Source: an uncultured marine group I thaumarchaeote (GTDB lineage Archaea > Thermoproteota > Nitrososphaeria > Nitrososphaerales > Nitrosopumilaceae). Taken from it: a stretch of DNA of 32,895 nucleotides. The notes beneath the pieces were generated by a model, which saw only the letters and a program-made list of their open reading frames with translations, was not told the origin of the DNA and did no database searches. The stretch spans positions 1 to 32,895 of the forward strand of contig CACLNC010000006.1 of assembly GCA_902608175.1 (NCBI GenBank), given 5' to 3'. Every line of letters starts with the position of its first letter. Within the stretch, counting starts at the first letter, position 1. Below are positions 3,421 to 11,280 of this stretch, piece by piece. The translations under genes and the position numbers were made by a program.

Positions 3421-5346
3421 TTAATTAGATTTATTTTCACCTATGGATTTTTTTAATTCTTCAAATGCAGACTGGACTTCGCTAACAGCAGTGCCATCTT
3501 CCAGTGTACTAACATCACCAATATTTTCACCACTTGCAATAGATTTTAAAAGTCGTCTCATGATTTTACCACTCCTAGTTTTGGGTAGCTTTGTAACAAA
3601 ATAGAATTGTTGTGGTGTAGCGATAGCACCAACATCATTTCGTATAATTTCCTTAAGTTTAATCAATAATTCATCACGTGACTCTGTTACATTCTCTTTT
3701 AAAACAACAAATGCTATTATCGATTCACCCTTAATTTCGTCAGGTATACCACATACAGCAGATTCTGCTACATTATGATATGATACTAAACTACTTTCAA
3801 GTTCTGCTGTTCCAATTCTATGACCAGCCACTTTAAGAACATCATCAGATCTTCCAAGTAGCCAAAGATATCCATCAGAATCTTTTATTGCATAATCACC
3901 AGGATAATACATCCCAGAAAACTTTGACCAATAGACATCATTATATTTTTCATTATCATTCCATAAGCCAAGTAACATTCCAGGCCACGGTTTTCTTATT
4001 ATCAATGAACCCTTTGTGTTTTCATCTACATCATTACCATTTTCATCAACTACAGTAATTTCTACACCTGGAATTGGTTTTGTTGCAGAACCTGGTTTTA
4101 ATGGAATTGATTCTAAACCTGGAAGTGAACTTATCATCATTCCACCAGTCTCTGTTTGCCACCATGTATCAATGATAGGGCATTTCTTTTTTCCAATAGT
4201 ATTAAAATACCACTTCCAAACTTCTGGATTTATTGGTTCGCCAACTGTCCCAAGTAATCGTAACGTTGTTAAATTAAATGAATTTGGTAGATCATCACCA
4301 AACTTCATAAACATTCTAAGTGCAGTTGGTGTTGTGTAAAATATTGTAACGTTGTATTTTTGAATTATCTCCCACATTCTTGATGCATTAGGGTAATCAG
4401 GTGCACCTTCATACATAACCTGTGTTGCACCATGTAAAAGTGGACCATACACCACATAACTATGTCCAGTAACCCAACCAATGTCAGCAGTACAGAAATA
4501 GATATCATTATCCTTGATATCAAATGCCCATTTGTATGTTGAATTAATGTGAGTTAGATAACCGCCAGTTCCATGTAGAACACCTTTCGGTTTTCCAGTT
4601 GTACCTGATGTATACAGTATGTAAAGTGGGTGCATACTATCCAATTCTTCAGCATCACAATCATCTGATGCATCACTCATTAAATTGGACCAAAATTTAT
4701 CTTTTTGATTTAATGTGATTTTCATCTTTGTTCTTTCTAGAATGATGATATGCTCAACAGAATTTACCGCTGCCGCCTTCTCATCTACAATTTCTTTGAG
4801 ATTAATTATTTTCCCTTTACGATAACCACCATCTGCGGTGATTATCACTTTAGATTGTGAATCCTCAACCCGATCTTTCAATGATATTGCACTAAATCCA
4901 GAAAAAACAACTGTATGTGTAGCCCCGATTCTTGCACAGGCAAGCATAGAAATTGGTAATTCTGGTACCATTGGAAGATAGATAGTAACCCTATCTCCTT
5001 TTTTTACGCCTAAAGATTTCAATACATTTGCAAATTTTTTGACATCTGTAAATAATTCCGAGTATGATATTTCTCTACTAGACCCATCTTCTCCTTCCCA
5101 GAAAATTGCTGTTTTTCTTGATTTAGAATTCTGATGTACATCTAATGCGTTAAATGATGCGTTGATTTTACCTCCTACAAACCATTTTGCAAATGGAGGA
5201 TTCCAGTCAAGTGTGTTTTCCCAATTCTTAAACCATGATAACAGTTTTGCCTGTTTATCCCAGAATGAGATGAAATCAGAATCTGCATTTCTTCTAATAG
5301 AGTGATCAGTATTACCTAAATTAATATCATAAATTTCTTTATGCAT
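3421..5346 (-). CDS. acs: Acetyl-CoA synthetase (AMP-forming)
   Basis: This 641-residue adenylate-forming enzyme makes acetyl-CoA from acetate, ATP and CoA. The Acs N-terminal domain is present (WFVGGKINASFNALD near 55-70). The P-loop-like YTSGTTGKPKG is at about 245-255, the DTWWQTETGG signature at about 395, and the small C-terminal domain carries the catalytic lysine in KTRSGKIMRR (K594). The Trp-Trp in the signature favours a small acyl group (acetyl, possibly propionyl). The length matches bacterial Acs. In a thaumarchaeon it could recover acetate or feed the hydroxypropionate/hydroxybutyrate cycle, but that link is inference. It lies 41 nt downstream of cdvA on the same strand and converges with the exported protein. 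Family assignment is firm; acetate rather than propionate is likely but unproven. Confidence 0.93.
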   Translation of the reverse strand: MHKEIYDINLGNTDHSIRRNADSDFISFWDKQAKLLSWFKNWENTLDWNPPFAKWFVGGKINASFNALDVHQNSKSRKTAIFWEGEDGSSREISYSELFTDVKKFANVLKSLGVKKGDRVTIYLPMVPELPISMLACARIGATHTVVFSGFSAISLKDRVEDSQSKVIITADGGYRKGKIINLKEIVDEKAAAVNSVEHIIILERTKMKITLNQKDKFWSNLMSDASDDCDAEELDSMHPLYILYTSGTTGKPKGVLHGTGGYLTHINSTYKWAFDIKDNDIYFCTADIGWVTGHSYVVYGPLLHGATQVMYEGAPDYPNASRMWEIIQKYNVTIFYTTPTALRMFMKFGDDLPNSFNLTTLRLLGTVGEPINPEVWKWYFNTIGKKKCPIIDTWWQTETGGMMISSLPGLESIPLKPGSATKPIPGVEITVVDENGNDVDENTKGSLIIRKPWPGMLLGLWNDNEKYNDVYWSKFSGMYYPGDYAIKDSDGYLWLLGRSDDVLKVAGHRIGTAELESSLVSYHNVAESAVCGIPDEIKGESIIAFVVLKENVTESRDELLIKLKEIIRNDVGAIATPQQFYFVTKLPKTRSGKIMRRLLKSIASGENIGDVSTLEDGTAVSEVQSAFEELKKSIGENKSN

Positions 5347-8699: not shown

Positions 8700-9707
8700 A
8701 TGAGAATAATACTGTGTGGATTTGGTGTGGTTGCGCAAAGCTTTGCAAAACTTCTAGAATCTAGAACTGCTGAACTATATACTAAATATGGTTTAAAACC
8801 TAGAATTGTCGGAGTTTTTGATAGTAAAGGTAGTGCAACTGACTCATCTGGTCTAAACTTAAACAAATTACTAAGTGTGAAGAAAAAATACGGTACTGTA
8901 GGAAACTATCAAAAAAATTCTGAGAAAGGTGGTGTTAACATGATACATAGCATAGATGCTGATGTTCTAATTGAAACTACAGCTAGTAATTACAAGGATG
9001 CTGAACCTGGTTTATCACATATTACTGCTGCAATGAAGGCTGGGCTACATATAATCTCAGTTAATAAGGGTCCTCTTGCTCTTGCGTTTCCATCTCTTAT
9101 GGAATTAGCATCATATAATCAAGTTTTGATGCGTTTTAGCGGTACTGTTGGTGGTGGCACTCCAATTCTTGACTATGCAAAAAATAGTCTTAGTGGAGAA
9201 AGAATAGTATCATTTCAAGGAATTCTAAATGGTACAACAAATTATATTTTAAGTAACATGCACTCCGGAATGTCATTTGAGACTGCTCTTACTGATGCAA
9301 AAAAAAGAGGGTATGTTGAAGCTGATGAATCATTAGATCTAGACGGATTAGATGCAGCTGCAAAACTTGTCATATTAGCAAATTGGATAATGGGAATGAA
9401 AGTAACTATGCCTGATATTAAATTAACAGGAATTCGTAAAGTAAATGATGAAATAATAAAAAATGCAGAAAAGAATGCAACTGCAACAAAACTAATTGCC
9501 TCATGTAATGGTGGGCTTGAAGTATCACCCAAACAAATTCCAATAAATGACCCACTTTGTGTTAATGGAACGTTGAATGCGATATCATTCACATCTGAAC
9601 ATTCAGGTACACAGACAATTATAGGCAGGGGTGCTGGTGGAACTGAAACTGCTAGTTCTATTTTACGTGACTTGATAGATATTAGAAAAGAGATCTCAAG
9701 ATTTTGA
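8700..9707 (+). CDS. hom: Homoserine dehydrogenase
   Basis: This 335-residue enzyme reduces aspartate semialdehyde to homoserine with NAD(P)H, on the path to threonine and methionine. The N-terminal Rossmann motif is CGFGVVAQSFAKLL (residues 6-19). The catalytic domain shows SGTVGGGTPILDYAK and GILNGTTNYILSNM (near 160-185), then AKKRGYVEADESLDLDGLDAAAKL, the classic homoserine dehydrogenase signature with its Glu/Asp and Lys residues. There is no C-terminal ACT domain, so this is the short, probably feedback-insensitive archaeal form. Its stop overlaps the TTG start of the PUA gene by 4 nt. An SD at 8685-8692 precedes it. Confidence 0.95.
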   Translation: MRIILCGFGVVAQSFAKLLESRTAELYTKYGLKPRIVGVFDSKGSATDSSGLNLNKLLSVKKKYGTVGNYQKNSEKGGVNMIHSIDADVLIETTASNYKDAEPGLSHITAAMKAGLHIISVNKGPLALAFPSLMELASYNQVLMRFSGTVGGGTPILDYAKNSLSGERIVSFQGILNGTTNYILSNMHSGMSFETALTDAKKRGYVEADESLDLDGLDAAAKLVILANWIMGMKVTMPDIKLTGIRKVNDEIIKNAEKNATATKLIASCNGGLEVSPKQIPINDPLCVNGTLNAISFTSEHSGTQTIIGRGAGGTETASSILRDLIDIRKEISRF

Positions 9708-10180
9708 AATCTAATCTAATTTCTAAAAGTGAAACTGCATCTATAATGAAACAGATATCTGAAGAATGGAAAATTGAATTACCAAAAATAAAAAATCTAA
9801 GATTCTATCATATTAGTGACAATGAAATCATTATTACTGGTGACAGTATTACAGCAATAAAAATAGATGATAGATTCTTACCACATCTCTCAGAGATTGA
9901 ACTATTGAAAAAATTCCCTCACATTATAGTTGATATGGGTGCAATAAAGTTTGTTTGTAAAGGTGCAAATATTATGAGACCTGGGATTACAAAATTAACT
10001 GATTTTAATGATGGAGCAATAATATGTGTGGTTGAAGAATCTAATAATAAATTCCTCTCAGTTGGTATTGCAAAGATGTCTAGTGATAAGGCTAATTCAA
10101 CAAAAACTGGTATTGTAGTTGAAAATTTACACTATATATCAGACAAATTTTGGGAAACTAAAAAAGAAATTAAAGACTAA
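9704..10180 (+). CDS. PUA-domain RNA-binding protein (MCT-1/Tma20-like)
   Basis: This 158-residue protein starts at TTG 9704, which shares bases with the hom stop (TTGA). An N-terminal domain of about 75 residues (LPKIKNLRFYHISDNEIIITG) precedes a PUA domain of about 80 residues (VDMGAIKFVCKGANIMRPGI, then GAIICVVEESN and FLSVGIAKMSS). This order resembles the archaeal COG2016 proteins related to eukaryotic MCT-1/Tma20, which bind ribosomes and help initiation or recycling. A role in translation is therefore likely but inferred from the family. Its coupling to homoserine dehydrogenase has no obvious functional reason. The 3' end overlaps that of the convergent proteasome gene by 4 nt (10177-10180). 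Confidence 0.8.
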   Translation: MKSNLISKSETASIMKQISEEWKIELPKIKNLRFYHISDNEIIITGDSITAIKIDDRFLPHLSEIELLKKFPHIIVDMGAIKFVCKGANIMRPGITKLTDFNDGAIICVVEESNNKFLSVGIAKMSSDKANSTKTGIVVENLHYISDKFWETKKEIKD

Positions 10181-10773
10181 ATTTTTTCAGTAAATTCTTG
10201 TATACCGTCTTTTTTGACAACCATAACGTCTATTCCATCTCCACTAAATGAATCACGCATTGTTGCAGAGCGAACAGATTTTTTTGCTAAATCAACAGCT
10301 TCCTTCTCAGACAAATTTTCTTTAAACTGAGGATCTAATACACCAAGTGCCATTTCTGCACCAGTACCAACTGCTGCATACTCATCAGGTAAAACAGAAC
10401 CAAGTGGATCTAGTGTGTAAATTTTTGGTTTATCGGTAACACCGCCAACGATAACTTGTGTAAGTAATGGAAAGAATCTTCTTTCATACATCATGTTAGA
10501 CATCATTTTTGCAACAGAATTTGGTGGTACATCACGTTTCAATTCAAGTTTTCTAATTTTTGCTAATGCAGAAATCTGTAACGAAAGTAATTGCATATCA
10601 GCGACAAGACCAGCACATGTAGCGCCAACAAAATCAGTGATTGGAAAAGTCTTTTTTGTTGTTTTACTTACAAGAAAATTTCCATATGCAATTCTTCTTT
10701 CACTAGCAAATACCACTCCTTGATCAAATGTTATACCAACTGCAGTTGCACCAGGCATGTACATTGCACACAT
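10177..10773 (-). CDS. psmB: Proteasome beta subunit, catalytic Thr replaced by Ala
   Basis: This is a 20S proteasome beta-type subunit. From ATG 10773 it has 198 residues; a TTG at 10797 would add 8. I prefer 10773 because a TTTTA box at 10798-10802 lies about 27 nt upstream. After the short leader MCAMYMPG, the mature sequence would begin ATAVGIT. In active subunits such as Thermoplasma (TTTVGIT) the first residue is the nucleophile Thr1; here the codon at 10747-10749 is GCA (Ala). Glu17 (ASERR) and Lys33 (KTTKK) are kept, as is the SGDGIDVMVV region. The fold is intact, but this subunit is predicted to be inactive and its leader unprocessed, as in archaea with a second, active beta subunit, which must be elsewhere. 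It ends overlapping the PUA gene by 4 nt. Confidence 0.93.
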   Translation of the reverse strand: MCAMYMPGATAVGITFDQGVVFASERRIAYGNFLVSKTTKKTFPITDFVGATCAGLVADMQLLSLQISALAKIRKLELKRDVPPNSVAKMMSNMMYERRFFPLLTQVIVGGVTDKPKIYTLDPLGSVLPDEYAAVGTGAEMALGVLDPQFKENLSEKEAVDLAKKSVRSATMRDSFSGDGIDVMVVKKDGIQEFTEKI

Positions 10774-10797
10774 ATCGTTACCTGCTAAATAAGACAA

Positions 10798-10926: not shown

Positions 10927-11280
10927 TTAACGACGTCTACGTTTCTTAGCTGGTGCTTTTCGTTTCTTAGCGCCGCCACGTTTCTTGGCTGGTGCTTTTC
11001 GTTTCTTAGCGCCGCCACGTTTCTTGGCTGGTGCTCTTCGTTTCTTGGCTGGGGCTTTTCGTTTTTTACCGCCACCGCCACCGCCACGTTTCTTAGCGCC
11101 GCCACGTTTCTTGGCGCCACCGCTACGTCGTTTTTTACCGCCACCTGCTGCTGCCTTTCGTTTTCGAGCTGCCTTTCGGGCAGATGCTGAACGTTTGGCT
11201 GCTAGTGCTGCGGCTTTTCGTTTGCGAGTGCGTGCTGCTTTTTTAGCTGCTGCGCGTCTCGCTGCTCTTGTCATAGCCAT
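10927..11280 (-). CDS. Lys/Arg/Ala-rich histone-H1-like basic protein
   Basis: This 117-residue protein is composed almost entirely of Ala, Lys, Arg and Gly with some Pro. The N-terminal half (MAMTRAARRAAAKKAARTRK) is Ala-rich and helix-forming. The C-terminal half is a Gly/Lys/Arg tail with a tandem 13-residue unit (KAPAKKRGGAKKR) repeated, encoded by a 39-nt DNA repeat. It resembles the tails of eukaryotic linker histone H1 and bacterial AlgP/Hc1-like proteins, so binding of DNA or RNA through charge is likely, but no folded domain is visible. The coding DNA is much more GC-rich than its surroundings because of GCN/CGN/GGN codons. It starts at ATG 11280 (or 11274) and precedes psmB on the same strand. 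Confidence 0.8.
   Translation of the reverse strand: MAMTRAARRAAAKKAARTRKRKAAALAAKRSASARKAARKRKAAAGGGKKRRSGGAKKRGGAKKRGGGGGGKKRKAPAKKRRAPAKKRGGAKKRKAPAKKRGGAKKRKAPAKKRRRR
10968..11060 (-). repeat. 39-nt tandem repeat inside the basic-protein gene
   Basis: The segment CGTTTCTTAGCGCCGCCACG recurs with a period of 39 nt (starting near 10963 and 11002), encoding repeated KAPAKKRGGAKKR units. Copies are near-identical, with variants such as TCTTAGC/TCTTGGC, so the array may change length by slippage or recombination. Boundaries are approximate. Confidence 0.6.

Follow-up and report, generated by a model that had tools for sequence, protein, structure and literature searches.

We propose that a psmB-type gene in an uncultured marine thaumarchaeote, whose near relatives bear the name Candidatus Nitrosopelagicus, encodes a beta subunit of the Thermoproteota 20S proteasome that is structural and not catalytic, and that a second beta would do the proteolysis; we give this reading a probability of about 0.93. 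The gene lies in the window, by which we mean the whole analysed stretch of 32,895 nucleotides (contig C6). According to this proposal, the subunit would fold like any other beta and would build the inner rings together with the alpha rings. Because alanine replaces the Thr1 nucleophile, it would neither remove its own short leader nor cut peptides. Proteolysis would fall to a second beta (GTTTVG), which would take up part of the seven positions of every beta ring and whose gene would lie in a gap of this assembly. The features concerned are as follows.

10177..10773, minus strand: non-catalytic (Ala1) proteasome beta, psmB-type gene, 198 amino acids, stop codon included, ATG start at 10773
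10750..10773, minus strand: leader MCAMYMPG, 8 residues ahead of Ala1, with Gly(-1) kept (alignment with relatives)
10747..10749, minus strand: Ala1 codon GCA, where active betas have the nucleophile Thr1 (sequence and orthologue alignment)
10699..10701, minus strand: Glu17 codon, kept (alignment; position by arithmetic from codon 1)
10651..10653, minus strand: Lys33 codon, kept (alignment; position by arithmetic from codon 1)
9704..10180, plus strand: PUA-domain protein, convergent with the beta gene and overlapping its end by 4 bases (Pfam search and neighbourhood comparison)

The beta frame is open, and its product matches PF00227 along almost the whole protein (E 4e-48, 164 bits, with a cut-off of 22.4). 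The best NCBIfam match is arc_protsome_B (TIGR03634, E 3e-62), and its score of 209.7 bits is slightly under the equivalog cut-off of 224 bits. The protein is a beta and not an alpha: alpha profiles score far below the beta profile, the N-terminal helix extension is absent, and an 8-residue leader stands straight before the first strand. Its closest match (JAKUOP010000021.1) is 90% identical. An intact fold is predicted by homology; an AlphaFold model, built from a 40-row alignment of close relatives, had a mean pLDDT of 47 and was set aside. The start codon is most likely the ATG at 10773, which we prefer over the mechanical TTG at 10797 because relatives open with MSAMYMPG, MTAMYMPG or MSYMPG, and the reading here is MCAMYMPG-ATAVG. 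In yeast, a beta1, beta2 or beta5 subunit that carries T1A neither sheds its leader nor is active (PMC4792962), and by analogy the leader MCAMYMPG is predicted to stay attached to the Ala1 beta.

The sequence-only reading had described an ATAVGIT-type N-terminus with alanine in place of Thr1 and with Glu17 and Lys33 retained, and the alignment bears out both statements. Bases 10752-10738 of the minus strand read GGT GCA ACT GCA GTT, or Gly(-1)-Ala1-Thr2-Ala3-Val4, followed by Gly5. In the numbering of the Thermoplasma acidophilum beta, for which we used a reference sequence that agrees with PDB chain 1pma (itself matched by the beta protein), T1, T3 and S129 are replaced by A, A and T, respectively, and E17, R19, K33, G47, D51, D166 and S169 are kept. 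Of the residues expected of a catalytic beta, Thr1 of the Gly(-1)-Thr1 pair is replaced by Ala, and Asp/Glu17 and Lys33 are present.

The same reading had predicted that such a subunit must mix with an active beta, and had suggested looking for a second psmB. The assembly to which the window belongs comprises 0.8 Mb in 47 contigs and is estimated to be 65% complete. A PF00227 search of it returned two alphas and the Ala1 beta only, and no Thr1 beta. Taken at face value, this set of genes would fit a lineage that has lost its active beta in a streamlined genome, with the Ala1 protein as the sole beta of an inactive or non-proteolytic complex. We consider this highly improbable, given the incompleteness of the assembly and the presence of a second beta, reading HGTTTVG or HGTTTVA, in 19 of 24 congeners; completeness is 57-74% for the five in which it was not found. 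A single-contig congener (G136) has four PF00227 genes, including the Ala1 beta and, judged by score, a strong Thr1-type beta. Of 200 genomes from the phylum, about 195, among them every single-contig one, match the Thr1-beta profile strongly. The genomes that apparently have the Ala1 beta only (G054, G132, G185, G224 and perhaps G203) are all multi-contig drafts estimated to be 90-96% complete.

Synteny also points to an assembly gap. In G020, the closest of the syntenic relatives examined, the active beta is flanked by two genes that we take to encode glycerol-1-phosphate dehydrogenase and aCPSF1, both of which are expected in all archaea. The present genome matches this region up to base 4107 of the query on contig C10; the contig stops at 25,712, shortly after this match and about 5.8 kb short of the active-beta locus (9974 in the G020 query). 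Neither flanking gene was found in the assembly, in which the sole match to aCPSF1 is a distant paralogue with 31% identity. Because C10 stops short and the flanking genes are missing as well, the active beta of this organism most likely falls in the gap. The sequence-only reading had named a genome with only this beta as evidence against itself; the present assembly is formally such a genome, at 65% completeness and with the locus probably in a gap.

We also compared position 1 across orthologues, as had been suggested for related genomes. Among 165 distinct orthologue sequences, drawn from about 50 families of the phylum, 161 have alanine here; many of the sequences are from Nitrosopumilaceae and hence not independent. 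Threonine never occurs; the four exceptions are one Ser, one Gly and two sequences that lack one residue, which brings Gly to this position. The motif GATx(V/I/L)G is found in 160 of the 165, with the codons GCA (99), GCT (28), GCC (21) and GCG (12). Given that all four alanine codons are used, it is the amino acid and not merely the DNA that is conserved, though Thr is only one transition away. Orthologues from 19 other genomes of the genus and from each of the 17 families sampled within the order have the motif PGAT(A/V)(V/I)G, and the same Ala1 pattern holds beyond the order, where approximately one genome was sampled per further family of the phylum. The sequence with Ser1 (L312, G066:C13:41198-42000) also has Val for Glu17 (LPSTAVG...GAVRRLSY), which looks like either further decay or an independent change. 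Contigs carrying this archaeal beta are also filed under Phycisphaerae and Marinoscillum genomes (L236 and L282), a sign that these assemblies are contaminated or mislabelled.

Oddly, the framework around the replaced nucleophile is retained. R19, K33, G47, D51, D166 and S169 are kept in all 165 Ala1-type orthologues and E/D17 in 164, and Thr2 is invariant; the Thr1 paralogues vary, with Asn at position 166 in 34 and Thr at position 169 in 40 of the 56 compared. This framework would suit a subunit that is catalytic by another route, with Thr2, or an N-terminus processed after Ala1, acting as the nucleophile with Lys33 and Glu17. However, Thr2 is just as conserved in the Thr1 betas, so that no catalytic role is needed to explain why it is conserved. 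Furthermore, a leader-truncated form of the inert Sulfolobus beta, used with alpha, gave a 28-mer without activity (PMC4569737), and the T1A subunits of yeast are inactive (PMC4792962). We therefore regard such catalysis as very unlikely. The retention is stricter than a purely structural role would obviously call for, and it counts against our preferred reading of a non-catalytic structural subunit. The simplest reason for it is structural need, in the form of salt bridges around Lys33 and Asp166. A more speculative and rather improbable idea is that the dead site and the attached leader are themselves under selection, for example as a peptide-binding or regulatory pocket or as an assembly checkpoint for a fixed hetero-ring; if this were true, the Ala1 subunit would be more than filler. 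Finally, although a single transition (G to A at the first codon position) separates Ala from Thr, a sequencing or assembly error hiding a true ACN codon is already refuted by the recurrence of Ala1 in four different codons, and its probability is negligible.

With the conservation of Ala1 and the occurrence of a second beta in relatives both favourable, the interpretation of an inactive beta that mixes with an active one is supported, where the inactivity, the mixed ring and the retained leader are predicted by analogy with Sulfolobus and yeast. The phylogeny of the betas is in line with this division. In a quick, midpoint-rooted tree in which the position-1 column was kept, 83 Ala1-type betas were separated from 46 Thr1-type betas by a single branch (SH-aLRT 98, without bootstrap), and one change of label suffices on this tree. 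Provided that the dividing branch holds the root, this pattern is compatible with a single ancient duplication and a single, likewise ancient, loss of Thr1, both preceding the divergence of the sampled families. The best PDB match of the window beta by sequence is chain H of 6z46, which, from its sequence, we take to be Saci0662, the inert beta of Sulfolobus acidocaldarius. The sequence L313, from a genome of the phylum, differs from this chain at two of 189 aligned residues and reads LPATAIG, which places the same Ala1 ahead of the solved sequence. The window beta groups with the Saci0662-type sequences, apart from the Thr1 betas, and L313 lies on the same side.

The gene neighbourhood is shared as well. 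In the genus, and likewise in a second genus that was tested, the Ala1 beta is flanked by MsrB, homoserine dehydrogenase and the PUA protein on one side and by an M20 peptidase on the other. The PUA protein adjoins it across the family and in a genome of another family (G025), where homoserine dehydrogenase is also found beside it. Next to the beta gene in the window, positions 10927..11280 of the minus strand encode a 117-residue protein consisting almost wholly of Ala/Lys/Arg/Gly repeats (AKKRKAPAKKRGG...). It has no Pfam match and looks like a histone-tail-like DNA-binding protein.

Other proteasome genes were noticed during the analysis. The two alpha paralogues of the window genome (L001 on G000:C5 and L002 on G000:C15, the second with the sequence GYDMTPTMYSPDGRIYQVEYA), together with the four PF00227 genes in most of the complete relatives of the family, suggest that both kinds of ring in the particle may be hetero-oligomeric. 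In addition, five genomes (G031, G037, G028, G026 and G040, with loci L050, L051, L052, L053 and L079) contain a third, tandem beta/alpha pair. Its beta starts directly with Met-Thr1-Thr2, without a leader, and keeps D17 and K33; its alpha is divergent and short (YPFFYGPEGRLIQVDAALEAVRRG). The tandem-pair beta occurs in 26 of 120 genomes of the class, 11 from family f8, 13 from genus g25 and one each from g21 and g3. This beta appears to belong to a second, self-contained proteasome.

The window protein is thus an orthologue of an already known inert subunit that occurs throughout the phylum, and the finding is real but ordinary. It extends the arrangement of inert plus active betas to ammonia-oxidising archaea and to about 50 sampled families of the phylum, whereas in the literature we found this arrangement has been demonstrated biochemically in Sulfolobus only. 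In the literature searched, we found no explicit description of this subunit in Thaumarchaeota/Nitrososphaerota and no experiments on any Nitrososphaeria proteasome. Provided that the root separates the two groups of betas, the tree suggests a single, early origin of this division of labour in Thermoproteota. This bears on the origin of mixed beta rings, as in eukaryotes, and leaves the known picture unchanged.

Among known systems, the proteasome of S. acidocaldarius is the one to compare first. There, the inert Saci0662 and alpha form a 28-mer without activity, and Saci0909 does not assemble with alpha alone, joining the ring at a lower ratio to confer activity (PMC4569737). The window beta resembles Saci0662 as its orthologue by the tree, in Ala1-Thr2-Ala3 (PGATAVG, with PATAIG in Sulfolobus), in keeping E17 and K33, and in its probable coexistence with a Thr1 beta. 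However, S. acidocaldarius belongs to another class and the host of the window is marine, Gly is kept before Ala1 here where Sulfolobus reads Pro-Ala, and S129 is Thr here. S. acidocaldarius also has one alpha (PMC4569737), whereas the window genome has two alpha paralogues. The beta of the T. acidophilum 20S proteasome shares the fold family and the compared active-site residues save 1, 3 and 129, but it has Thr1 and forms a homo-heptameric ring of one catalytic beta. The non-catalytic betas of eukaryotes, such as beta7, are alike in principle in that an inert beta shares a ring with active ones; the inert Sulfolobus beta has been found to be more like yeast beta7, by BLAST only (PMC4569737). 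The engineered T1A mutants of yeast (PMC4792962) show the same single-residue loss of the nucleophile in an otherwise intact site, but they are artificial and concern a normally active subunit.
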